Program-made: the position numbers and the translations under genes
Notes under the pieces: generated by a model
The model's database searches: none
Told to the model about the DNA's origin: nothing
Seen by the model: only the letters and a program-made list of their open reading frames with translations
DNA from: a virus
Virus record (IMG/VR): IMGVR_UViG_3300008448_000033
Location: 1-64,000 of that record
Reading direction: 5' to 3' (one strand)
DNA length: 64,000 nucleotides
In this document: positions 2,890 through 20,204 of the stretch, one piece after another
Numbering within the stretch: position 1 is the first letter of the stretch
How the letters are laid out: each line of letters opens with the position of its first letter

Positions 2890-3112
2890 GCTGCTCGCTC
2901 ATCTTTTGTTCATAATCTGCAAGATATATCTTGACATCATGCCACAAATAGTGGCGTGTGCTTTTTGCGCTTGAGAACCAATATATAGTGTAGTATGGAC
3001 CCATACCACCACTAGCGGTAGTGTATCTGCTTACGATACCATAACCAAACGTATGTGAAAAGACAAATCTTGATACTGCTTTTGCCCCACCATCTTTAGC
3101 TTTTGTTGGCAA
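2861..3112 (-). CDS. Small SH3-like array protein, TTG start
   Basis: 83 residues, TTG start behind GGGGGAAACACC. Contains FGYGIVSRYTTASGG, then YYTIYWFSSAK and VKIYLADYEQ: a clear member of the YxVxWF subgroup with a long loop between strands two and three. The C-terminal tail is charged. Function unknown. Confidence 0.78.
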   Translation of the reverse strand: MPTKAKDGGAKAVSRFVFSHTFGYGIVSRYTTASGGMGPYYTIYWFSSAKSTRHYLWHDVKIYLADYEQKMSEQHEKDQEAKV

Positions 3113-3281
3113 GGTGTTTCCCCCATGCCCGAATCTCTAACTCGTATGAATGGATTGTATCAAGGGTCTGGGTATCTTGCAACACAAGAATGTTACCCTT
3201 GTTGGATGCTCTTATTATTTTGACAATAACATAGGTCGTCTTGAATCCAACTATTATATCGCCTACACTATATTCAGTCAA
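3096..3281 (-). CDS. Small SH3-like array protein, TTG start
   Basis: 61 residues, TTG start behind AAGGAAATAGGTC. Begins with VGDIIVGFKTTYVIVKIIR, then NILVLQDTQT, then YELEIRAW. All-beta in appearance; lacks the GIV...WF block but keeps the VGDI first strand. Overlaps the downstream gene by 17 bases. Function unknown. Confidence 0.7.
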   Translation of the reverse strand: MTEYSVGDIIVGFKTTYVIVKIIRASNKGNILVLQDTQTLDTIHSYELEIRAWGKHLANKS

Positions 3282-3764: not shown

Positions 3765-3941
3765 TCACTTCTTGATGGAAGTCAAGTCACAAACGCAAAC
3801 ACCCTTGGCATCCACATAACGTACCGTATAAGGCGCACAGGTAGGCTCACAAGCCTTCTTAGCTTCCTCGTCCTTAATCTGGAGTGCGGTGCAACCAACG
3901 CAGGAACCAAGGAACAGGAGAAAGAACGCAAGATCACTCAT
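3765..3941 (-). CDS. Small lipoprotein
   Basis: 58 residues, ATG behind GGTGGAG. Begins with a short hydrophobic signal (LAFFLLFLG) followed by a lipobox-like L-G-S-C and a second Cys three residues on; the mature part has a Cys-x3-Cys and a C-V-C-D element and would lie outside the inner membrane. A lipoprotein made in an early small-gene array could act in superinfection exclusion or envelope takeover; this is inference from context only. Confidence 0.72.
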   Translation of the reverse strand: MSDLAFFLLFLGSCVGCTALQIKDEEAKKACEPTCAPYTVRYVDAKGVCVCDLTSIKK

Positions 3942-4185
3942 TTTGTTTGCTCCACCTTAAAAAGTATTCGCGGTATGATTTAGTTTCTTTGATTGACTCT
4001 GTTGACCAAGCGTTACCGTCATGGCTAATATAATTGAACCATCTAACCTTGTAAAGCTTTTTTCCAAGGTGATCAGTCTCGTCTGCGAAACCTAAAATAA
4101 TTCCAAAGTCAAGCACTTCGTTACAATCAGTATCAGTATCCACAAACGCAACCATGTCACCAGTTTTAAGCTTTATCCTTGACAA
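3934..4185 (-). CDS. Small SH3-like array protein, TTG start
   Basis: 83 residues, TTG start behind GGAAGTGAGC. Contains TGDMVAFVDTDTD, LDFGIILGFAD, then YKVRWFNY and a C-terminal helix. One of the best matches to the family consensus (GIIL...YKVRWF). Overlaps the lipoprotein start by eight bases. Function unknown. Confidence 0.8.
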   Translation of the reverse strand: MSRIKLKTGDMVAFVDTDTDCNEVLDFGIILGFADETDHLGKKLYKVRWFNYISHDGNAWSTESIKETKSYREYFLRWSKQNE

Positions 4186-4192
4186 TCAAAGC

Positions 4193-4387
4193 TCACTTCC
4201 TCTTATTTATTGCATCAACTAATGTCAAGCCAATGTCTCTAACCATCTTAACAGTATCGTCTGCCTTGTCAAGCTTTTCCTTGAGCAGGGTCTTAATCTC
4301 GTCGTAGGAGGGAGTATCGAACGGATCTATCTTAGCCTGTTCGTTATACTTTGTCAAGTCCTGTCCACAATTAGGGCAGTAATTCAT
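4193..4387 (-). CDS. Small zinc-ribbon protein
   Basis: 64 residues from the ATG behind CAGGAGTGAAA. Starts with a half zinc ribbon (CPNCGQDL) and continues as an acidic/basic amphipathic helix (about residues 20-60). A single CxxC pair would need dimerisation or a partner to bind zinc. Function unknown. Confidence 0.72.
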   Translation of the reverse strand: MNYCPNCGQDLTKYNEQAKIDPFDTPSYDEIKTLLKEKLDKADDTVKMVRDIGLTLVDAINKRK

Positions 4388-5189: not shown

Positions 5190-5606
5190 TTAGGCACTTG
5201 CCGCATCATCGAACATCGAAGGATTAATCTTGCGGAGCCAATCCTCGTCCATAGGGATCGCACCGCTCATCATGTCGGACATTCGCTGAACATCATCCGT
5301 AGAGAGGCTAGGAACCTCGCTATCGTCCGCAGAAACGGCATCCTCGTTGGACTCCTCGCCGGTATCACTTGCCGGTGCATCAACCGTCACCGGGGTAACG
5401 TCGAGCGTGATACCGTCTGCAAGAACGAAACCACCGTTGCGTCCTCGCTTGCCGGTGATCTTACCGGACTCCTTGAGAGAGTCAAGAACGTCGAGAACAT
5501 CGTTACCAAACTTACCGATAAGGTGAGTCTTGGGGCAGGGACGCTCATTGCTAGTGTGAAACTCGCGGATCGTAGTCAGCACGTTCGTAGTGTTAAGAGT
5601 AGTCAT
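5190..5606 (-). CDS. Possible winged-helix protein with acidic tail
   Basis: 138 residues, ATG behind GAGGAAAATAA. Residues about 28-65 (VLDVLDSLKESGKITGKRG followed by NGGFVL) look like a recognition helix followed by a basic beta-wing, suggesting a small winged-helix DNA-binding domain; this is a pattern judgement. The second half is acidic and low-complexity. It has its own promoter and a strong hairpin after it, so it is a single-gene unit, as expected for a regulator. Confidence 0.65.
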   Translation of the reverse strand: MTTLNTTNVLTTIREFHTSNERPCPKTHLIGKFGNDVLDVLDSLKESGKITGKRGRNGGFVLADGITLDVTPVTVDAPASDTGEESNEDAVSADDSEVPSLSTDDVQRMSDMMSGAIPMDEDWLRKINPSMFDDAASA

Positions 5607-5655
5607 TTATTTTCCTCGTTTCCGCCCATTGGGCTTGTTAGGTCTTGCGTTTGCC

Positions 5656-5862
5656 TTACTCACTCAGTATATCAAAATCGTTTTCGTTGTCAACCGTTTC
5701 TCTATCTTCCTCTACCGATTCCTGTAACTCACCACATTCAGCGCATTGCCAAGTCTCCAATCTGCAAGGGATTGCGATATCGTCCTCTCCCCAACCAACT
5801 ACAGAGATAACATCCAAAATCTCATATCTGTGATCGTCATCTGCACATTTAGATCTTATCAT
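5656..5862 (-). CDS. Small Cys-containing acidic protein
   Basis: 68 residues from the ATG behind AAGGGAGAAAC. Contains one CAEC pair near residue 41 and earlier single cysteines, then an acidic tail. Could be a half zinc ribbon. The promoter of the next gene lies inside its last codons. Function unknown. Confidence 0.65.
   Translation of the reverse strand: MIRSKCADDDHRYEILDVISVVGWGEDDIAIPCRLETWQCAECGELQESVEEDRETVDNENDFDILSE
5666..5693 (-). promoter_or_regulatory. Sigma70-type promoter
   Basis: TTGACA, 16 bases, TATACT on the minus strand, inside the 3' end of the gene at 5656-5862 and about 60 bases upstream of the start at 5606. Confidence 0.7.
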
Positions 5863-8972: not shown

Positions 8973-9278
8973 TTACAATGCAAGGCGTGTTTTTACACCA
9001 AAGAGAACCGGCTCATGCTTCGCTTTTTATCGGTTTGCCACTATTCTGGTTCACATGAACGGGCTAGTGTCCTATCCCCCAACCACAGCGACCTACGCTA
9101 GATTGCAGTTACCCTATCAGCTTTTTCTCGCATAGTCAAGTGAATAAAAGAGTTTCTAAACTACGCTTTCGGGAGCGTTAGCATTCCGCCTCTTAACGAG
9201 ATTTCTAGCTGCACTTGTGGATTTTGTCTCACTCTTTAAAAGATGGCTACCTTTAAGCCTACTTCCCTCGCATTGTAA
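8973..9278 (-). ncRNA. Structured RNA A (unassigned), about 306 nt
   Basis: No good reading frame occupies this stretch. Its ends pair: 8973-8985 with 9266-9278, 13 bp with one G-U. Inside are further complementary arms: a hairpin near 9166-9185 (ACGCT/AGCGT core), a GTTC/GAAC hairpin near 9050-9061 within a CACTA/TAGTG helix, an AACCG/CGGTT helix, and a GTGT/ACAC hairpin near the 3' side. It follows tRNA-Leu-CAA and is probably processed from the same transcript. A GAGGGAAGT stretch near the 5' side recalls RNase P conserved region I, but conserved region V is missing. No tRNA-like ends as in tmRNA. Class unknown. Confidence 0.6.
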
Positions 9279-9284
9279 CACGAT

Positions 9285-9372
9285 TGGTGGGCAAGGTGGG
9301 AGTCGAACCCACAATGTCTAAGGTGACGCCGGAGTTTGAAGCCGGTGGATATGCCAATTCTCCTACTCGCCC
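9285..9372 (-). tRNA. tRNA-Leu (CAA)
   Basis: Seven-bp acceptor (GGGCGAG/CTTGCCC), three-bp D stem, anticodon loop TTCAAAC, long variable arm, T arm GTGGG-TTCGACT-CCCAC, and an encoded ACCA end. The pair at 31-39 is C-U, a mismatch at the base of the anticodon loop. The long variable arm and A73 fit leucine. Reads UUG. Confidence 0.85.
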
Positions 9373-9379
9373 GAAAAGT

Positions 9380-9466
9380 TGGTGGGGAAAGTCGGAATCG
9401 AACCGACAAGGGATTGCTCCCGGCAGATTTTAAGTCTGCTGTGTTTACCTATTTCACCATATCCCC
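9380..9466 (-). tRNA. tRNA-Leu (UAA)
   Basis: Acceptor GGGGATA/TTTCCCC with one T-T mismatch, anticodon stem GCAGA/TCTGC with loop CTTAAAA, long variable arm, T loop TTCGATT, encoded ACCA. First gene after the promoter at 9476-9505. Confidence 0.9.
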
Positions 9467-9475
9467 ATTAAACTC

Positions 9476-9505
9476 ATTCTACCATAGATCTATTTACTTT
9501 TTCAA
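9476..9505 (-). promoter_or_regulatory. Promoter of the tRNA-Leu pair
   Basis: TTGAAA, 18 bases, TAGAAT preceded by TATGG, just upstream of tRNA-Leu (UAA). It would also transcribe tRNA-Leu (CAA) and structured RNA A. Confidence 0.65.
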
Positions 9506-9760
9506 CTTCTTTGTATTTTTAGTTAGGTTGTCGAACATCGTTGCTACCGGCAACCCTTTCAACCAATCATCGTACATTTTCTTCATCTTGTCAATACCTT
9601 GTTCAAGGTGCCATACTTCCTCACCTGTTTCCATGTGTTTGACAAGGTACATCGTTGGGGCTTCGATCTCTCGCAATTCTACAGCAATTACAACACCAAG
9701 TCCACTCATAAAACCATAGACTAGATCTCCAATTTTGTGCTTGGTGCCTTCCTCATTCAC
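9494..9760 (-). CDS. Small SH3-like array protein, GTG start
   Basis: 88 residues; GTG start behind GAGGAGTATGATGG, overlapping the upstream stop. IGDLVYGFMSGLGVVIAVEL, then MYLVKHMETGEEVWHLEQG and a helical, lysine-rich tail. Combines the GIV-type second strand with the M-x-T-G-E element of the VGQIW subgroup, linking the two subgroups. Function unknown. Confidence 0.78.
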   Translation of the reverse strand: MNEEGTKHKIGDLVYGFMSGLGVVIAVELREIEAPTMYLVKHMETGEEVWHLEQGIDKMKKMYDDWLKGLPVATMFDNLTKNTKKLKK

Positions 9761-9960
9761 CCATCATACTCCTCTACGGTTGAAGTGTCAATAATACTTG
9801 CAAGGTTATTTGCACCTCTACGCATATAATCAGTACCGCCATCCGTAAAGATTTCACCACACTTGCACTTGACAAAATCGTGACGATGCTTGCTCACAAT
9901 CTCGTCACCACACTTTGCACACTTGCAACTATTACGGATTATACGGTAATTCTTCGACAT
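9757..9960 (-). CDS. Zinc-ribbon protein with GGTDYxRRG motif
   Basis: 67 residues from the ATG behind AAAGGTTGAAA. Contains CAKCGDEI, an HRHDF block, CKCGEIF, then GGTDYMRRG. This compact zinc ribbon with C-terminal G-G-x-D-Y-x-R-R is a recurring small phage protein type of unknown function (resembles DUF7695 from memory). Overlaps neighbours by a few bases. Confidence 0.72.
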   Translation of the reverse strand: MSKNYRIIRNSCKCAKCGDEIVSKHRHDFVKCKCGEIFTDGGTDYMRRGANNLASIIDTSTVEEYDG

Positions 9961-10168
9961 TTTCAACCTTTTTGTAGTCCTTGAACATATCTTCATGGCA
10001 ATGATCTTTATCGTTCATAACAAAACTATAGAAATAATAAGGATAACGAGAGTCATTTTCAATGTCAAGAATAATCAATAAATCCCCGTAGTATTCATCT
10101 TCCTCGTTGATGTTGACAAGCATATCACCAATGTTGTATCTTGTCAAATCTTTTCTATGCTCGCCCAT
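9932..10168 (-). CDS. Small SH3-like array protein
   Basis: 78 residues; IGDMLVNINEEDEYYGDLLIILDI, then YYFYSFVMND and a C-terminal helix. Matches the array's first two strands (IGDxL, LLIILDI) with an acidic loop. GGAGGA upstream of ATG. Function unknown. Confidence 0.75.
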   Translation of the reverse strand: MGEHRKDLTRYNIGDMLVNINEEDEYYGDLLIILDIENDSRYPYYFYSFVMNDKDHCHEDMFKDYKKVENVEELPYNP

Positions 10169-10326
10169 GTATAACCACCATCCTCCTGTGGTGAGTCAAA
10201 CCATTTGACAATATAATAAAAATTGTCATAGTGAACAACTATACCATAAGGTTGTGGATGCTCCAAATTATTCCATGTTGACATTTTGACAAACTCGCCA
10301 ACATCAAAAGTTTTCTCTCTCCGCAT
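10144..10326 (-). CDS. Small SH3-like array protein
   Basis: 60 residues; VGEFVKMSTWNN, PYGIVVHYDNFYYIVKWFDS, then TWASIEKI. An almost consensus member: YGIVV, YYIVKWF, final W-x-S-I. GAGGTTGATAACTA precedes ATG. Function unknown. Confidence 0.82.
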   Translation of the reverse strand: MRREKTFDVGEFVKMSTWNNLEHPQPYGIVVHYDNFYYIVKWFDSPQEDGGYTWASIEKI

Positions 10327-10486
10327 TAGTTATCAACCTCAAACTTTTATTGGAGTGGAATCCATTACGGTTCATACTCTGCCAGAACACTTCAAAAATG
10401 TCAAGACCATTATCATTATGAATCTGGACAATAGTACCGGGACCAACAAATAGTGGATGCGTTACAATACTACCAATTGCAAACAT
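10304..10486 (-). CDS. Small SH3-like array protein read from a tRNA end
   Basis: 60 residues; IGSIVTHPLFVGPGTIVQIHN, then FEVFWQS, then SLRLI. A clear array member. Its ribosome-binding site GGAGG lies in the 3' acceptor strand of tRNA-Thr, and the A of its ATG is the last base of the encoded CCA end. A transcript cut at the tRNA 3' end would lose this start region, so tRNA processing and translation of this gene look mutually exclusive. Confidence 0.8.
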   Translation of the reverse strand: MFAIGSIVTHPLFVGPGTIVQIHNDNGLDIFEVFWQSMNRNGFHSNKSLRLITNAERENF

Positions 10487-10559
10487 GGTGCCTCCGACTA
10501 GAATCGAACTAGTAATTCATCATTACAAGGGATGAGTTATACCATTTAACTACAGAGGC
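10486..10559 (-). tRNA. tRNA-Thr (UGU)
   Basis: Acceptor GCCTCTG/CGGAGGC, D stem GTTA/AAC, anticodon loop CTTGTAA in a CATC/GATG stem with one mismatch, T arm ACTAG-TTCGATT-CTAGT, encoded ACCA. Last base is shared with the next gene's start codon. Confidence 0.88.
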
Positions 10560-10578
10560 GTCAAGAACAAATTGGTGT

Positions 10579-10652
10579 TGAGCCTTCGTATGGGATTTGA
10601 ACCCATATTAACGATGCCTCGTTATCCTGCCGGTTAGATCAACGAAGGCTCA
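10579..10652 (-). tRNA. tRNA-like element with shortened anticodon arm
   Basis: Has an ATC/GAT D stem with a GG in the loop, a standard T arm (ATGGG-TTCAAAT-CCCAT), and an end helix of 11 perfect bp (10579-10589 with 10642-10652) instead of seven. Between the D st and T arms there are about six bases fewer than in a normal tRNA; that segment folds as TAACG/CGTTA around a six-base loop AGGCAT with no U33. No anticodon can be assigned. A decayed tRNA gene or a non-decoding tRNA mimic. Confidence 0.6.
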
Positions 10653-10655
10653 AAT

Positions 10656-10730
10656 TGGTGACTCCAACCAGATTTGAACTGGTGTAATAGCCTTGAAAGG
10701 GCTATGTCCTAACCGCTAGACGATGGAGCC
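10656..10730 (-). tRNA. tRNA-Glu (UUC)
   Basis: Acceptor GGCTCCA/TGGAGTC, D arm GTC...GAC, anticodon stem TAGCC/GGCTA with loop CTTTCAA, T arm ACCAG-TTCAAAT-CTGGT, encoded ACCA. Confidence 0.9.
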
Positions 10731-10737
10731 TTAAAAT

Positions 10738-10813
10738 TGGTAGGGAGTGTCGGACTCGAACCGACCACCAAAGGATTAAAAGTCCTTTGCTCTACCTGAT
10801 GAGCTAACTCCCC
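10738..10813 (-). tRNA. tRNA-Lys (UUU)
   Basis: Acceptor GGGGAGT/ACTCCCT, D stem GCTC/GAGC, anticodon stem AAGGA/TCCTT with loop CTTTTAA, T arm GTCGG-TTCGAGT-CCGAC, encoded ACCA. Its first ten bases are also the last codons and stop of the upstream HNH gene. Confidence 0.92.
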
Positions 10814-11160
10814 ATGCTTTCTAACTCATGTATCTCTCTATGACAGTTTGCACAGACTAAGATACATTTGTCAATTTCTTTTTTTATTGCTTCCCAAGAT
10901 CGTGTTAAACCTTTATGGCTTATGCCAAAATCTTTATGCTGTGGTTCTATGTGATGAAAGTCGAGAGCAGATATACACTTATTATACCCACATTTCTGGC
11001 ATTGTCCACCTTTATGTTCCACCGCCATTTGCTTTAACATATCTCTGCGTTTTTGCACTTGATAACTTCTACATTTCGTACAACGGTAATACCCTCTACC
11101 CTCTAGGACGAATGGCACATTACCATGCTTCTTGCAATCTCTGTTTTCATAATTTGGCAT
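10804..11160 (-). CDS. HNH homing endonuclease-like protein
   Basis: 118 residues, ATG behind AGGAGGTGTTGTT. Two N-terminal CxxC-type pairs (CTKC, CQKC) and an HNH core: ALDFHHIEPQHKDF, then CILVCANCHREIH. Families of this type cut DNA near their own insertion site. It lies inside the tRNA cluster and its stop overlaps the 5' end of tRNA-Lys by ten bases, as if selfish insertion placed it exactly at a tRNA boundary. It has its own extended -10 promoter. Confidence 0.85.
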   Translation of the reverse strand: MPNYENRDCKKHGNVPFVLEGRGYYRCTKCRSYQVQKRRDMLKQMAVEHKGGQCQKCGYNKCISALDFHHIEPQHKDFGISHKGLTRSWEAIKKEIDKCILVCANCHREIHELESMGS

Positions 11161-11181
11161 AACAACACCTCCTATGCCTAA

Positions 11182-11204
11182 ATAGTACCACAGATTACAA
11201 AAAG
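11182..11204 (-). promoter_or_regulatory. Extended -10 promoter of the HNH gene
   Basis: TGTGGTACTAT on the minus strand with a poor -35 region. The same TGTGGTA lead-in occurs in the tRNA-Arg, tRNA-Ile and 18985-19012 promoters, which suggests a phage-preferred extended -10 form. Confidence 0.5.
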
Positions 11205-11214
11205 ACTTAAAAAT

Positions 11215-11289
11215 TGGCTGGACGGGCTGGAGTCGAACCAGCGATAGGAAAATTAACAGTTTTCTGCCTTGCCTCTTGGCTACCGTCCA
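11215..11289 (-). tRNA. tRNA-Asn (GUU)
   Basis: Acceptor TGGACGG/CCGTCCA, anticodon stem GAAAA/TTTTC with loop CTGTTAA, T arm GCTGG-TTCGACT-CCAGC, encoded GCCA. Lies 28 bases after structured RNA B and is probably on the same transcript. Confidence 0.9.
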
Positions 11290-11317
11290 ACTATATCATA
11301 CTCACTCTAAATTACAA

Positions 11318-11597
11318 CTTGAATCTAGTGGAGCAGGTTCTTTAAAATGGGTTCCATTCCACTCCCCGCTTTTCGGTAGTGATACCCTTATCGTATCACA
11401 TGATAGCTGCATTTCAACACAATTCGGTACAAGCCCATTTAGTTTTGGATAGCACTCGCACACAAGTAAATGTCACCTAGCAGTAACGCAAGGACTCGTT
11501 TTCGGTCTAAACACTATCCTCAAGACAGCAATGCCCTACCAGACGTTTAACAGCAGCTTTAAACGTACCTCATATGTATTACCTAACTAGATTCAAG
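11318..11597 (-). ncRNA. Structured RNA B (unassigned), about 280 nt
   Basis: Non-coding stretch whose ends form a perfect 12-bp helix (11318-11329 with 11586-11597). Internal hairpins include 11379-11385/11393-11399 (7 bp) and 11543-11549/11560-11566 (7 bp). A consensus -10 (TATAAT, 11600-11605) with TTGCCT 16 bases upstream places the start at or inside the 5' arm of the closing helix. Not a tRNA, tmRNA or RNase P by visible motifs. No clear sequence similarity to RNA A. Unassigned. Confidence 0.62.
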
Positions 11598-11599
11598 AC

Positions 11600-11627
11600 A
11601 TTATACACTCTTTATGTACCAAGGCAA
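11600..11627 (-). promoter_or_regulatory. Promoter of structured RNA B
   Basis: TTGCCT, 16 bases, TATAAT on the minus strand. The -35 overlaps the 3' arm of element C. Confidence 0.65.
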
Positions 11628-11740
11628 GGGGAACTTTCTTCACATTTCCCTTGCTAGACGCCCTATTATAATTCTCCCCTGTATACGGGACGGTGATCGA
11701 AGCGCCATACATCACCTAATTAATAATTTCCTGCCTTGGT
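11618..11740 (-). ncRNA. Structured element C (unassigned), about 123 nt
   Basis: Ends pair perfectly over 9 bp (11618-11626 with 11732-11740). Inside: GGTGAT/ATCACC (11691-11696 with 11710-11715), a TCCC/GGGA hairpin, and GCAAGGG/CCCTTGC near the 3' end. It lies between tRNA-Arg and RNA B in the same orientation and resembles in size the stable non-tRNA RNAs known from the T4 tRNA cluster. It may be an independent RNA or a leader. Confidence 0.5.
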
Positions 11741-11789
11741 TTCTTGGTTAACTTACTATAAACTATCATCGTACTCCTGTCAACAAAAT

Positions 11790-11866
11790 TGGCGATCTGG
11801 GAGGGAATCGAACCCCCAACCTAAGAGGTAGAAGCTCTTTGCTCTATCCAATTGAGCTACCAGACC
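11790..11866 (-). tRNA. tRNA-Arg (UCU)
   Basis: Acceptor GGTCTGG/CCAGATC, D stem GCTC/GAGC, anticodon stem AAGAG/CTCTT with loop CTTCTAC, T arm GGGGG-TTCGATT-CCCTC, encoded GCCA. Reads AGA. Confidence 0.9.
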
Positions 11867-11872
11867 GCAAAA

Positions 11873-11901
11873 GATGTACCACAGATATTGGAACTTGTCA
11901 A
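11873..11901 (-). promoter_or_regulatory. Promoter of tRNA-Arg
   Basis: TTGACA, 17 bases, TACATC preceded by TGTGG, ending seven bases before the tRNA 5' end. Confidence 0.6.
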
Positions 11902-11974
11902 CGAAATCTACTCGTTGGGCGTGTACGGTGACGATGCGCGAGGAGGAACCGTAGGACGCCTCTGTAGGTACAAT

Positions 11975-12064
11975 TGGTGCGCCCGCTAGGAGTCGAACCT
12001 AGTCTAGGCGGTCATCTACCGCAAAGCGATTATAAGTCGCTCTCGCAATCCGATGCACGGGCGC
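11975..12064 (-). tRNA. Class II tRNA with UAU anticodon (Ile?)
   Basis: Acceptor GCGCCCG/CGGGCGC, anticodon stem GCGA/TCGC with loop CTTATAA giving anticodon TAT, an extra arm of five bp (GCGGT/ACCGC), T arm CTAGG-TTCGACT-CCTAG, encoded ACCA. The D arm is short and irregular. UAU reads AUA (Ile), but a long variable arm is normally found only in Leu, Ser and Tyr tRNAs, so what it is charged with is uncertain. Confidence 0.75.
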
Positions 12065-12077
12065 GTTAACTTTGTAT

Positions 12078-12105
12078 ATCGTACCACAAACCACTTAATT
12101 GTCAA
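12078..12105 (-). promoter_or_regulatory. Promoter of the class II tRNA
   Basis: TTGACA, 16 bases, TACGAT preceded by TGTGG, 14 bases upstream of the tRNA. A 7-bp inverted repeat (12119-12125 with 12173-12179, long loop) separates it from the upstream gene and may end that transcript. Confidence 0.65.
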
Positions 12106-12200
12106 CGATCAACTTACAGAGAGAGTCTAACACTTTTTCTTGACCATGTTAAGTTTTCGATGGACTGTTTATCTCTCTCATTTAAGTTACTTTATCATAC

Positions 12201-12416
12201 TCAAACGCTCTTTGCAACTACCTTCCCGATCACGCTATTCCAGTTAAAGACACGGTAGCCTTTCTTCTGGACATCCCAGACAAGCTCCTTGCCTACAGGA
12301 TACTCCACAACCTTTCGCTTGTCAACCTTAGACTTTGGAAGATCGTTCAGTCGAGCAAACTTAATCTTGCGTTTCGTTCCATCATCTTTACGATATGTTG
12401 CCTCAAACAAAACCAT
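12201..12416 (-). CDS. SH3 beta-barrel protein (DUF2693-like)
   Basis: 71 residues, ATG behind AAGGAGATTGACAA. Pattern FEATYRKDDGTKRKIKFARL, then LVWDVQKKGYRVFNWNSVIG, resembling the phage DUF2693 SH3 beta-barrel type from memory. It has a paralogue at 57094-57348 with the same order (K-x-D-G-T/S-x-R-K-x-K-F-x-x-L, VWD, R-x-F-N-W-x-x-V-x-G). Own promoter upstream. Function unknown. Confidence 0.75.
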   Translation of the reverse strand: MVLFEATYRKDDGTKRKIKFARLNDLPKSKVDKRKVVEYPVGKELVWDVQKKGYRVFNWNSVIGKVVAKSV

Positions 12417-12441
12417 TTGTCAATCTCCTTTTTATGAATTT

Positions 12442-12470
12442 ATCTTAACACACTACCGGCAGGAGTTCAA
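12442..12470 (-). promoter_or_regulatory. Sigma70-type promoter
   Basis: TTGAAC, 17 bases, TAAGAT. The -35 lies in the loop of an inverted repeat (ACCGGCAG with CTGTCGGT). Confidence 0.6.
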
Positions 12471-12506
12471 GCACTTTCTGTCGGTGTCCGGTCATTTTAT
12501 CTCCAA

Positions 12507-13154
12507 TTAAAAGATGATACCACCATTATCGGTTGGCTCACTTGCAAGCTTATCATAATCCTTCTGCCTTGCAAGTGCAATCTTATACTCGTCAACCATA
12601 AGGGATTGACCGGATTCCACAAAATAAACCTTGTAAATCTTGTTGCCTCGCACGGCACGCTCAACGTATGGCATCACTTCAAGAATTGTGCCAATGCCAG
12701 TCATTGCATAATGACTGTGCATGGAACGAGTGCGTACATTATCTCCAATGTTAAACTTAGGCTTTGCCCTGTAGCCATCAATCAAGATCTTAGCATACTT
12801 GTTCTCACAAATGCTACGATATTCGGCAGGAGTGGGAACGTAGCCACTATCCTTGGCTACCTTGGAAACGATGTTGACAAAGTAGCTGGTTCGCCGGTAA
12901 TAGTCAACAGCAACTTTAAAGTTTTCCTTCTTGTCCGAATTGTGATAGTCGTTATACCAATCATTATTGCAATCGGTATAATTCTTGCTAATCCGCTCAA
13001 GGGCAATAAACTGCCCATTAGTCAAGAAATTCTTGTTGCGATAATAGGAATCAATGGAAGAAAGAAACCCATCCTTGGTGCGCTGATCAACATGGGGATT
13101 GTCAATAAGCTTCTTGATCATCGCAGGAATTTCGGGATTAGTAACCTTGTCCAT
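12507..13154 (-). CDS. Two-domain protein: helical domain plus SH3-like module
   Basis: 215 residues, ATG behind GGAGGAAAAAC. Residues about 1-125 are helical and Tyr/Asn-rich; the rest carries FNIGDNVRTRSM, GIGTILEVMPY, YKVYFVESG and a closing VDEYKIALAR, the same strand order as the single-domain array proteins. Together with 6076-6888 it shows the module attached to a longer body. Function unknown. Flanked by a terminator/promoter hairpin upstream. Confidence 0.73.
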   Translation of the reverse strand: MDKVTNPEIPAMIKKLIDNPHVDQRTKDGFLSSIDSYYRNKNFLTNGQFIALERISKNYTDCNNDWYNDYHNSDKKENFKVAVDYYRRTSYFVNIVSKVAKDSGYVPTPAEYRSICENKYAKILIDGYRAKPKFNIGDNVRTRSMHSHYAMTGIGTILEVMPYVERAVRGNKIYKVYFVESGQSLMVDEYKIALARQKDYDKLASEPTDNGGIIF

Positions 13155-14482: not shown

Positions 14483-14511
14483 ATCTTAGCCTATCGGTTA
14501 CGCCTTGTCAA
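14483..14511 (-). promoter_or_regulatory. Sigma70-type promoter at the ATPase 3' end
   Basis: TTGACA, 17 bases, TAAGAT; overlaps the last codons of the ATPase gene. Gives the VWA gene a second promoter. Confidence 0.65.
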
Positions 14512-15628
14512 CCGTGACCTTCTTGCCGGTCATAATCTCGACAAGGTGATGGTTAACCGACTTACCCTTGTAGGTGGACTTGTTCATAATCGGAATGTTC
14601 TTGACATTGCCGATACCCTGCTTGGCAAGCGAGTTCCAAAACTTCATGGCAGGCTCGCTAGGCATGGTGATGAACAGACGAGTGGCATTCTTAGCGATAG
14701 CATCGGTAAACTCGTTCTTAAGGATACCGTGAGCGGTCACCTTGTCAACGAATGCAGTATAGTCGTTGATCGTCCAACCGTCAAGCTTCTTGAAGTCACC
14801 ATCAACCATGACATCCTCGACGGTAACCTGCTTCTGGTACTTGTCTGCGAAGTCACGCAGGGCAACCGCAGCTTCAACGCCAACGAACGCATTAGCAACC
14901 TCAAACACCATCGAAAGGTTGCCCGCCTTGTTCTTGTCATCGAAGTCAAGCAGACTCGACACGCTAAGACACTCATTCAGTCGGAACCAAGAACGACGCG
15001 AAGGGTACACCTTGTTAGGCTCAAACTCACCCTTATGCTCAAGGTGCGGACGGTTCTGGTTGATGAAGTCCCAGACGATAGAATGCACCTTTCCCTTAGA
15101 GTAGTCAAGCCAATCCTCAACGCTAGGCTCAACATCGAACACGGTCCAACGATCCAATTCGGCAGGGTCCATCTCACCGACCTGATACTGCGAACCGTGC
15201 GTGCCTCCATTCACGGCAGCAAAGATAAGGGTCTTAGGGTGAAGGTGCCAACCGTTAAGCTTACGCGAGTCGGTAAGCTCAAAGATACCCTGTCGAACCT
15301 CGTTCACCGCACGGTCAACCTCGTCCAGAAAGAGGACAACAGGCTTATCACAAGCGGTCTTGTACCAATCGGGAGGGTTCCACTTGGTAGTCCCCCCATC
15401 AAGGCTAGGCAGACCGATAAGATCACCCTCAGTCATCTGCGAGGCTCGACGCTCGACAACCGGCAGCGGACCCGAATAGATATCGGGCAGCGTGTTGTGG
15501 ACGTTACCAGCAAACTGGTAAACAGTCTCGCTCTTGCCGGTACCATGCTTGCCCCGAAGCAGAATGGGCTTCTTAACGCGAGCGATGAGCGGAGCAACCT
15601 TGTTGAACGTCTTGAAATCAATAGCCAT
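14498..15628 (-). CDS. MoxR-type AAA+ ATPase
   Basis: 376 residues, ATG behind AAGGAGAGTACGAA. Walker A GKHGTGKSE (about residues 26-34), Walker B VVLFLDEVDRA (about 98-108), a sensor-like FAAVNGG strand and a helical lid. ATP-driven remodelling; expected to work with the VWA/metallopeptidase product encoded just downstream. It shares the GC-richer codon use of this region. Confidence 0.85.
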   Translation of the reverse strand: MAIDFKTFNKVAPLIARVKKPILLRGKHGTGKSETVYQFAGNVHNTLPDIYSGPLPVVERRASQMTEGDLIGLPSLDGGTTKWNPPDWYKTACDKPVVLFLDEVDRAVNEVRQGIFELTDSRKLNGWHLHPKTLIFAAVNGGTHGSQYQVGEMDPAELDRWTVFDVEPSVEDWLDYSKGKVHSIVWDFINQNRPHLEHKGEFEPNKVYPSRRSWFRLNECLSVSSLLDFDDKNKAGNLSMVFEVANAFVGVEAAVALRDFADKYQKQVTVEDVMVDGDFKKLDGWTINDYTAFVDKVTAHGILKNEFTDAIAKNATRLFITMPSEPAMKFWNSLAKQGIGNVKNIPIMNKSTYKGKSVNHHLVEIMTGKKVTVDKA

Positions 15629-15716: not shown

Positions 15717-16379
15717 CTACTTTTTCTTGCTACGCACCGAATCAGCAATGTTATCTGGAATGCTGGTCACGGTTTCAACATCGGTCAAGTACCGATCTTC
15801 AAAGATATTACCACTACCATTTGCAGGAGTCAACATATTTGCAATAAAATCCGGGTGGAATGCATAGTTATTTTCGTTGCCAATACTATCTCGCCACTTG
15901 ATCAGCATATAACCAGCAGATCCTAACATATCTCGCGTTGCGATGGAAGCAATAACTTTCTTATTGCGGACTGAAGAATGTGCCTCAAACTGCAATTCCC
16001 CACTATAAGTAAGATCATCTGTCTTGGTGATCACAAGAGTATCAAGAGAATCGGAACTAGTCAAGTCATAATAGCTTGACCGCATCCAGCTAGGAATCTC
16101 ATAAGAAAGCACGGTACCGACACCGAAACCATGCCGCTTATACATATCATTAATTGCCGCTCGACGCAACAGCTCATCACGCTTAAACTTGGCAAGCGCA
16201 TTCTTGCGAGCATCGCAGGATGCACGATTATGACCAGTATTGGCACAATAATTGCAACGCCGATTCTTAGCCATCTGTGCATACCGCTGCTTAACACTTT
16301 CGGGCGCACTAGGACAATTACGCCTAGTGTGACCATAGCTAAGACAATAACGACACAGCGGTTCCCTACGCCAACCCAT
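15717..16379 (-). CDS. CCHC zinc-knuckle protein
   Basis: 220 residues from the ATG behind GGAGGTGCGTG. Two retroviral-type zinc knuckles, CRYCLSYGHTRRNC and CNYCANTGHNRASC (both C-x2-C-x4-H-x4-C), occupy the first 55 residues, joined by a basic linker; this domain binds single-stranded RNA or DNA. A basic helical stretch follows, then a beta-rich C-terminal domain (FGVGTVLSYE, LIKWRD) that may be another SH3-like module. First gene after a strong promoter. Zinc knuckles of this type are rare in phages. Confidence 0.8.
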   Translation of the reverse strand: MGWRREPLCRYCLSYGHTRRNCPSAPESVKQRYAQMAKNRRCNYCANTGHNRASCDARKNALAKFKRDELLRRAAINDMYKRHGFGVGTVLSYEIPSWMRSSYYDLTSSDSLDTLVITKTDDLTYSGELQFEAHSSVRNKKVIASIATRDMLGSAGYMLIKWRDSIGNENNYAFHPDFIANMLTPANGSGNIFEDRYLTDVETVTSIPDNIADSVRSKKK

Positions 16380-16461
16380 CACGCACCTCCATGAACAGAC
16401 ATTAACAGATTAAAGAATACCGTGCAACCTTTTCTTTTTCGCTCCCCGAAACAGGAAGGAC

Positions 16462-19012: not shown

Positions 19013-19206
19013 GTACTTTCTTTTACCACTTTATACTCACCAGACTGCATATAATTTTGTATTTTATCAAGCAAATAAATATAATCTTCTAAGCTATCTC
19101 TATTATTATCGTCTTTAATAAAGGTATAGCTAATGATACATTTATCGCTAGTTGTTTCAACCGTTATAGTAGCGATATTGTCTCTTGTTAAGATTATTTT
19201 ACTCAT
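19009..19206 (-). CDS. Small protein of unknown function
   Basis: 65 residues; start overlaps the purA-like stop (TAATG). Beta-rich N-terminus (KIILTRDNIATITVETT), helical C-terminus (EDYIYLLDKIQNYMQ). Probably translated together with the purA-like gene. No family recognised. Confidence 0.68.
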   Translation of the reverse strand: MSKIILTRDNIATITVETTSDKCIISYTFIKDDNNRDSLEDYIYLLDKIQNYMQSGEYKVVKEST

Positions 19207-20204
19207 TAGATTCTTTCTGGGGAATCAGACCAATAAACTTTTACATAATATGGGATTCTTGAAGTAACCCATCCTTGCATTTCTTTTTCATTTGGGAATT
19301 CTACAAGGAAATCTTTTTCGTCGTAGACTCTCCAAACTCCAACATCTCTCAAAATATCAGTCTTGTTAAATACAACTTTATTTACACCATTAATATTAAT
19401 GGCTTTGATAAGATCATTCATTTTGATCCAATTACATTGACGGGGACGACCAGTAGTGGCACCATATTCCATGCCTTTTTCACGAATCTCTTTAAATACT
19501 TCTTCATCTGGTTCAAACTTCTTTAGTCCAACATATGTTTCATAAGCCTTTGCAACGCCCCAAATATTTCTGATCTTCTGTGGTGGAACACCATTGCCGA
19601 TTGCAGCAGCAACAGTGCATCCACTACTAGTAACATAAGGATAGTCTCCCCAGTCAATATCAAGTCCAAAGCCCTGCGCCCCTTCAAAAAGAATTCTACA
19701 ATTTTCTCTAGAAGAGTGCAATTCCTCATACATATCAATTAGATATGGCTCTAAGGCTTTTACTTGTTCCGCTCGTAAGCCCTTACGCCAGTGCTTGTCA
19801 CGATAGGCTTGACCGACTCCACGTTTTGTTGTCCCGATAGTGTTATCTTGTCGATCCTCCATAATGTGTTCATCGGTGATGATATGAGCATTTCGTGCAA
19901 TAAATACCAAGCCCTGACACCTGATACCACCATTTTCTAACTCCTCCATTTCCTGAAAGAAATGGTCCACGTTTAAAACACAACCGGGACCGATAATACT
20001 TTTAATCCCGTAGAACACGCCACTAGGGATAGAGTGGGTAATAAACTTCTTCCCCTCATGGTAAATAGTATGACCGGCATTATTGCCGCCGTTGTATCTA
20101 ACTACATGAGTATAGTTTTCTTTCTTGCATAATTGATGTGTAACTTTGCCCTTACCAGAATCACCATAAGCTAAATCTACGACTACATCAGCATACTCAA
20201 TCAT
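19206..20204 (-). CDS. purA: Short adenylosuccinate synthetase (PurA/PurZ type)
   Basis: 332 residues, ATG behind GAGGATAAT. Family enzymes join aspartate to a 6-oxopurine nucleotide using GTP. Visible: GDSGKGK P-loop (D15 kept, following residue Ser instead of the usual Glu), NNAGHT with H45, IGTTKRGVGQAY, FEGAQG, DYPYVTSS, GATTGRPRQ, NKTDIL. Bacterial PurA is about 430 residues; this length matches archaeal short PurA and phage PurZ, which makes the precursor of 2-aminoadenine DNA. Ser in the P-loop is a reason to test for PurZ activity. No DatZ- or MazZ-like gene is seen here, so ordinary AMP supply remains possible. Confidence 0.88.
   Translation of the reverse strand: MIEYADVVVDLAYGDSGKGKVTHQLCKKENYTHVVRYNGGNNAGHTIYHEGKKFITHSIPSGVFYGIKSIIGPGCVLNVDHFFQEMEELENGGIRCQGLVFIARNAHIITDEHIMEDRQDNTIGTTKRGVGQAYRDKHWRKGLRAEQVKALEPYLIDMYEELHSSRENCRILFEGAQGFGLDIDWGDYPYVTSSGCTVAAAIGNGVPPQKIRNIWGVAKAYETYVGLKKFEPDEEVFKEIREKGMEYGATTGRPRQCNWIKMNDLIKAININGVNKVVFNKTDILRDVGVWRVYDEKDFLVEFPNEKEMQGWVTSRIPYYVKVYWSDSPERI

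Follow-up and report, generated by a model that had tools for sequence, protein, structure and literature searches.

Two predicted structured RNAs of one plan in a phage tRNA array, with relatives in the arrays of other uncultured phages

We analyzed a 64,000-nt stretch of viral DNA (the window), which corresponds to bases 1 to 64000 of the 85.6-kb record IMGVR_UViG_3300008448_000033. The window carries a cluster of tRNA genes, and in the gap of about 500 nt between tRNA-Arg and tRNA-Asn the minus strand very probably encodes a structured RNA of 280 nt, here referred to as RNA B, whose sequence we regard as real. Directly upstream, in the same gap and on the same strand, lies RNA A, which follows an identical plan. 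We propose, with a probability of roughly 0.7, that RNA B is the gene for a stable structured noncoding RNA and that the two RNAs represent an undescribed RNA family residing in the tRNA arrays of uncultured phages.

Fold of RNA B and its tandem partner

As defined here, members of the family begin with a long closing helix (P1), followed by a hairpin (P2) whose loop is predicted to pair with a short later strand to form a pseudoknot, and by a variable middle domain. Toward the 3′ end, the pseudoknot strand runs into a (C)UAG-like motif, UA(G/A/U) in its general form; next come a hairpin (P4), whose loop is often purine-rich and CGAAGA-like, and the 3′ arm of P1. The parts assigned to this plan in the window are listed in Table 1, together with the neighboring genes and the relatives described below. 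P1 comprises 11 bp in RNA A and 12 bp in RNA B, and is thus at least 8 bp long in both. The P4 loop of RNA B, GAUAAGG, is a divergent form of the CGAAGA-like loop.

Table 1. Positions of the predicted RNAs, their parts, neighboring genes, promoter-like sites and related elements (window numbering unless a locus, L, is given)
Feature	Position	Strand	Remarks
RNA B, 280 nt	11318-11597	-	identified by fold z, motif-plus-stem score and joint P1-P2-pseudoknot-P4 descriptor
RNA B P1 5′ arm	11586-11597	-	CUUGAAUCUAGU; perfect 12-bp helix with 3′ arm
RNA B P1 3′ arm	11318-11329	-	ACUAGAUUCAAG; pairs with 5′ arm CUUGAAUCUAGU
RNA B P2 hairpin	11543-11566	-	ACGUUUAA-AGCUGCUG-UUAAACGU; in MFE and centroid folds
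RNA B P2-loop pseudoknot strand	11558-11553	-	AGCUGC
RNA B pseudoknot 3′ strand	11405-11410	-	GCAGCU; 6 bp with AGCUGC
RNA B P4 hairpin	11379-11399	-	GUGAUAC-GAUAAGG-GUAUCAC; in MFE and centroid folds
RNA B post-P4 segment	11369-11376	-	CCGAAAAG; relatives have CATCGAAAAG, CCCCGAAAAG
RNA B CCCAUU motif	11346-11351	-	common to relatives
RNA A, ~123 nt	11618-11740	-	model R1 match; fold z −2.4
RNA A P1 5′ arm	11730-11740	-	ACCAAGGCAGG; partner 11629-11618
RNA A P1 3′ arm	11618-11629	-	CCTTGCCTTGGT; includes TTGCCT
RNA A P2 hairpin	11692-11716	-	GGUGAU...AUCACC
RNA A P2-loop pseudoknot strand	11706-11702	-	GGCGC
RNA A pseudoknot 3′ strand	11657-11661	-	GCGUC, then UAG
RNA A P4 hairpin	11629-11650	-	GGGAA-AUGUGAAGAAAG-UUCCC; adjoins P1 3′ arm; third-best match of model R2
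tRNA-Arg (TCT)	11790-11866	-	nearest gene upstream of RNA A
tRNA-Asn (GTT)	11215-11289	-	nearest gene downstream; 28 nt past RNA B
HNH endonuclease gene	10804-11160		between tRNA-Asn and tRNA-Lys
TTGCCT-16-TATAAT	11600-11627	-	originally predicted promoter; TTGCCT 11627-11622, TATAAT 11605-11600
TTGACA-17-TATAGT	11755-11783	-	promoter-like by consensus match only (11/12 positions); upstream of RNA A
Type A relatives	L100:1557-1696; L150:3558-3697; L104:971-833		L104 on minus strand
Type B relatives	L100:4972-5175; L150 ~5515-5715; L101:2949-3164; L101:4402-4678		
Intermediate type	L101:5027-5250		within tRNA array; type A model match, 17.6 bits
GOLLD and tmRNA genes (Rfam)	L171:3161-3625; L171:15315-15770; L151:11403-11838; L178:10684-11042		

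The original prediction had described a TTGCCT and a TATAAT separated by 16 nt, a perfect 12-bp helix and clear internal hairpins; all of these are present on the minus strand. It had also found no reading frame, and we likewise saw none that is convincing, the longest mechanical ORF touching RNA B being 58 aa with a TTG start. It overlooked, however, that RNA B has a tandem partner built on the same plan.

The minus strand of RNA B folds to −84.1 kcal/mol, compared to −68.6 ± 4.7 kcal/mol for shuffled sequences (z −3.3), and none of 200 shuffles was as stable. The plus strand of the same stretch displayed a weaker excess of folding (z −1.9). Keeping both pseudoknot strands of RNA B unpaired costs 2.7 kcal/mol. 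The 12-bp helix does not count as evidence by itself: 2 perfect 12-bp inverted repeats with spacers of 80 to 450 nt were seen in the window, where a Markov model leads one to expect 3.7, and the helix is unusual, and mildly so, only inside the 500-nt gap between the two tRNA genes (17 of 5,000 shuffles). A further helix in RNA B, AAAUGGG with CCCAUUU (weak match at 11443-11343, 8.7 bits), was dropped because it was inconsistent among the relatives.

Relatives, models and covariation

Using the ATPase gene at 14498-15628 as a query, we collected 80 related loci, some of them with large tRNA arrays. These arrays, together with a scan employing a small zinc protein encoded in the array, yielded four loci of uncultured phages (L100, L101, L104 and L150) with structured noncoding RNAs in their inter-tRNA gaps. 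Locus L127, near-identical to L101, has identical copies of the L101 RNAs. In L101, tRNA-Gln ends at 2945, the helix of the first type B member spans 2949-3164, and tRNA-Thr starts at 3169; the array closes with a family RNA and then a terminator-like hairpin, with no tRNA after it. For both type B members of L101 and that of L100, the fit to the P2-loop pseudoknot is less clear than for the type A members, and all three were missed by the joint descriptor introduced below. Two more closed structures, at 1460-1570 and 3870-4225, were seen in the L101 array. The former, with a GCGAAGG loop, may be a further relative; the latter was rejected as a family member since it did not match the family core.

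By blastn, the RNA B region gave nothing convincing against cultured phages and 40 related records, and no relatives of either RNA were found among cultured phages. The exact pattern AGCGAAGA..CATCGANAAGG occurred in 40 places, near tRNAs only in L101 and L127. The exact patterns AACTCTGCTGCGAACACC, CCGCKAAGA..TTGCCCCRAAAAG and GTTTAAAGCTGCTGTTAAAC gave only chance matches away from tRNA arrays, and a pattern scan of bacterial genomes gave only chance matches outside such arrays. RNA B has a single copy in its 85.6-kb record.

Two covariance models were built with the window excluded: R1, based only on the three relatives of type A, and R2, from four type B cores of relatives. With filters off, R1 found RNA A at full length (11739-11620) with 19.1 bits and an E value of 3.5e-5 in 521 nt; the E value was 2e-4 in 3 kb and, scaled to 64 kb, about 0.004. 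The top match of R2 in 4 kb was positions 11408-11345 of the window, within RNA B (14.1 bits, E 0.052), which is marginal and suggestive only. Both RNAs were missed when the default speed filters were on.

We also employed a motif-plus-stem score, which combines the loop, tail, upstream and CCCATTG motifs of the relatives with stem pairing. RNA B scored 33.2, a value reached by none of 10,000 real segments and none of 10,000 dinucleotide shuffles, although the motifs were picked with the window in view and this null of 20,000 segments thus understates chance. In 3.0 Mb of phage DNA, scores above 31 were obtained, besides RNA B, for the training RNAs, the intermediate-type L101 member and two false matches, one of which lay in a locus that had been retrieved with a related pattern. 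A joint descriptor was written from the plan only: P1, P2 with a loop that pairs to the strand before UA, and P4. It takes no letters from the relatives except the UA and a loose rule for the P4 loop. This descriptor finds both RNA A and RNA B, in one 500-nt gap. Its matches numbered 5 in the 0.30 Mb lying at most 1 kb from same-strand tRNAs, versus 16 in 5.57 Mb elsewhere.

A full-length MAFFT alignment of type A misaligned the window row, and an alignment without the variable P3 was used instead; it was made from sequence alone, with no structure, and was fixed before pairs were counted. Three of the five pseudoknot pairs of RNA A carry two-sided compensatory changes relative to the UCUGC and GCAGA strands of the relatives, and one pair in P2 is likewise changed. 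Across six members, the pseudoknot strands read UCUGC with GCAGA, GGCGC with GCGUC, GAUGC with GCAUC, GCUGC with GCAGC, GUUGC with GCAAC and GUUGC with GCAGC. All 30 cells of this table pair, with six further pair types; this percentage is biased by selection, because complementarity guided the choice of the strands and an artificial spacer links them. In the five type B members compared, every P4 stem pairs and, judged by eye, two-sided changes occur at 4 of 6 positions. The relatives in the other arrays and the covariation, evidence of the kind put forward as a check on the original prediction, support a discrete structured RNA in the tRNA cluster.

An Rfam search of RNA A and RNA B returned no family at E ≤ 5, and the L101 RNAs gave only weak, chance-level matches below threshold. 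Neither window RNA matched tRNA or tmRNA (ARAGORN, Rfam), and RNA B did not match the group I intron (RF00028). As positive controls, the same library detected GOLLD in L171, a group I intron (RF00028) in L104 and tmRNA in sister loci. Within the open full-text literature, which was the scope of our survey, no description of the family was found. Nearest in kind are RNAC (species 1) and RNAD (species 2) of phage T4 (AF158101, 70908-71171), likewise small noncoding RNAs inside a phage tRNA cluster; those of T4 have been seen as stable transcripts, whereas RNA A and RNA B are predicted. Stable RNAs with unassigned roles have long been known from the T4 cluster (PMC3014915), and RNAC and RNAD, whose role is unassigned, were detected on Northern blots (PMC9697503). 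There is no recognizable similarity in sequence or structure: in the T4 rnaC/rnaD stretch the joint descriptor finds no member, and R1 and R2 have no match. GOLLD and ROOL are structured phage and prophage RNAs near tRNA islands, and in GOLLD the 3′ part is conserved and the 5′ part variable (PMC12286853). RNA A and RNA B resemble them in lying by tRNAs and, in the case of GOLLD (RF02032), in combining conserved and variable parts, but GOLLD and ROOL are much larger. A second family, unrelated to that of T4, with a definable pseudoknot core and several copies per array in several phages, would turn a T4 oddity into a class open to modeling, searching and testing, and would bear on why phages retain tRNA arrays.

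Promoter, processing and possible action

In the original prediction, RNA B had its own promoter, located exactly at the closing helix. The end of the TATAAT is 3 nt upstream of the helix, so that a start set by it (about 11593) would fall within the 5′ arm of P1, and the presumed −35 element lies within P1 of RNA A. Moreover, the region is rich in promoter-like sites: 25 were found compared to 8.3 expected, one of them finishing exactly at the start of tRNA-Asn, and a further perfect TATAAT occurs at 11670-11665. Since the relatives lie only a few nucleotides from flanking tRNAs, release from a long transcript by tRNA-type processing is a better fit than an own promoter. Judged by sequence, TTGCCT-16-TATAAT is unlikely to be the RNA B promoter, and the TTGACA-17-TATAGT site is a better candidate for RNA A and RNA B together. 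What stands of the predicted discrete stable RNA in the tRNA cluster is the structured RNA, by virtue of relatives and covariation; the argument from a match of promoter and helix ends does not. From 9000 to 12600 of the window, sigma-70-like sites are about three times as frequent as in shuffles and often lie just 5′ of tRNA or small-protein genes.

RNA A and RNA B are most likely stable RNAs trimmed from a tRNA transcript. According to our model, RNA A, RNA B and tRNA-Asn would be cotranscribed, with the site at 11783-11755 as their probable promoter. The tRNA-processing machinery would then free RNA B, with RNase P cleaving at the 5′ end of tRNA-Asn and nucleases trimming to P1. P1 would guard the RNA ends, and RNA B would accumulate as T4 RNAs C and D do.

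More tentatively, and at less than even odds, we suggest that RNA B acts as a folded decoy or scaffold that binds a protein, such as a host nuclease or a translation or processing factor. The fixed pseudoknot and P4 core would supply the fold that members share, and the variable middle domain would confer specificity. ToxI, a short pseudoknot, occurs as repeats; no such repeats were noted in RNA A or RNA B. A precedent in mode of action only, for a phage RNA as molecular mimic, is the ToxI-like RNA of phage PhiTE, which mimics a type III antitoxin and acts against host defense (PMC3475682). A broader and rather unlikely extension would view phage tRNA arrays as cassettes of rapidly evolving decoy RNAs whose arms stand in tRNA-like order, RNA A and RNA B being two of them. 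Such paralogues would keep a fixed frame of P1, pseudoknot and P4 and exchange their middle domains, each binding a different host tRNA-targeting enzyme or defense nuclease.

Alternative explanations and other elements of the arrays

Chance folding of an AT-rich noncoding gap would account for a 12-bp inverted repeat, which is to be expected in a window of this size, but it is quite improbable given models built independently from relatives, two tandem descriptor matches in one 500-nt gap, and covariation. Least probable of all is that the element is left over from a group I intron or from a mobile element bounded by 12-bp terminal inverted repeats. An HNH endonuclease gene does lie nearby, and a group I intron occurs in the tRNA array of L104; yet no intron match was obtained at E ≤ 5 with the library that detects the L104 intron, the element is not repeated in its record, and the relatives have the inner core in common rather than end repeats.

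The short distance between the relatives and the tRNAs on one or both sides, with P1 ends near tRNA ends, would also fit a role confined to the tRNA precursor, in which RNA A and RNA B would be folded spacers directing or protecting the cleavage of neighboring tRNAs and would serve no purpose once released. We consider this unlikely, because most inter-tRNA gaps in these arrays are a few nucleotides long and contain no such element, the conserved pseudoknot and P4 exceed the needs of a spacer, and the last L101 member is followed by a terminator-like hairpin instead of a tRNA. Similarly doubtful is a derivation from tRNA, as mimics or tRNA-derived decoys, which would be a special case of, and compatible with, the stable-RNA explanation. 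The order P1, P2, P3, P4 recalls the acceptor, D, anticodon and T arms, and in type A, P4 directly adjoins P1, so that a tRNA-like shape is possible for this type. In addition, the P4 loop of the L100, L150 and L104 members, GUCGAGAAA, recalls a T loop, R1 has a weak match to tRNA (E 0.1), and the T4 rnaC sequence ends in a T-arm-like hairpin. On the other hand, neither ARAGORN nor the Rfam tRNA model reports RNA A or RNA B, a 5- to 6-bp pseudoknot and a P1 of 8 to 12 bp are foreign to tRNA, the CCA end is absent, and in RNA B P4 and P1 lie about 50 nt apart.

The arrays contain other elements of interest. GOLLD in L171 and the tmRNA genes, in three loci, scored at or above Rfam thresholds; these loci are from uncultured phages with tRNA arrays. 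What appears to be another array RNA family, closed by a helix of roughly 16 bp, is found at L154:6683-6870, L164:8469-8613 and L178:587-756; the L154 helix is TTTGTTTAGTGTTATC ... GATAACACTAAACAAA, and its L178 counterpart differs in sequence. Noncoding stretches beside tRNA-Asn at L154:8696-8955, L171:6099-6437 and L151:2086-2427 have GGACAGGGTAAC-ACYCAGTT and related segments in common, and Rfam named no family for them. The group I intron match in L104 (1556-1754, minus strand) adjoins tRNA pieces, and L002 likely has a similar interrupted tRNA-Leu at about 11000-11275, as seen by eye. The Rfam model also revealed tRNA genes at L100:3655-3720 and L150:4999-5064 that are absent from the ARAGORN list.

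Among protein-coding genes, the HNH gene has a similar-looking counterpart in the L012 tRNA array (16002-16385). Many tiny proteins encoded between tRNAs of the window are alike (GD-V ... G-V ... V-W; for example, 12201-12416, 10144-10326 and 9494-9760), and L002 and L012 have similar ones; one of these proteins gave a weak match to the WYL_2 Sm-like/SH3 domain (E 0.0004, under the Pfam cut-off). Finally, the window encodes at 19206-20204 an adenylosuccinate synthetase homologue that matches the PHROG "2-aminooxy adenylosuccinate synthetase," and the phage DNA might contain 2-aminoadenine.
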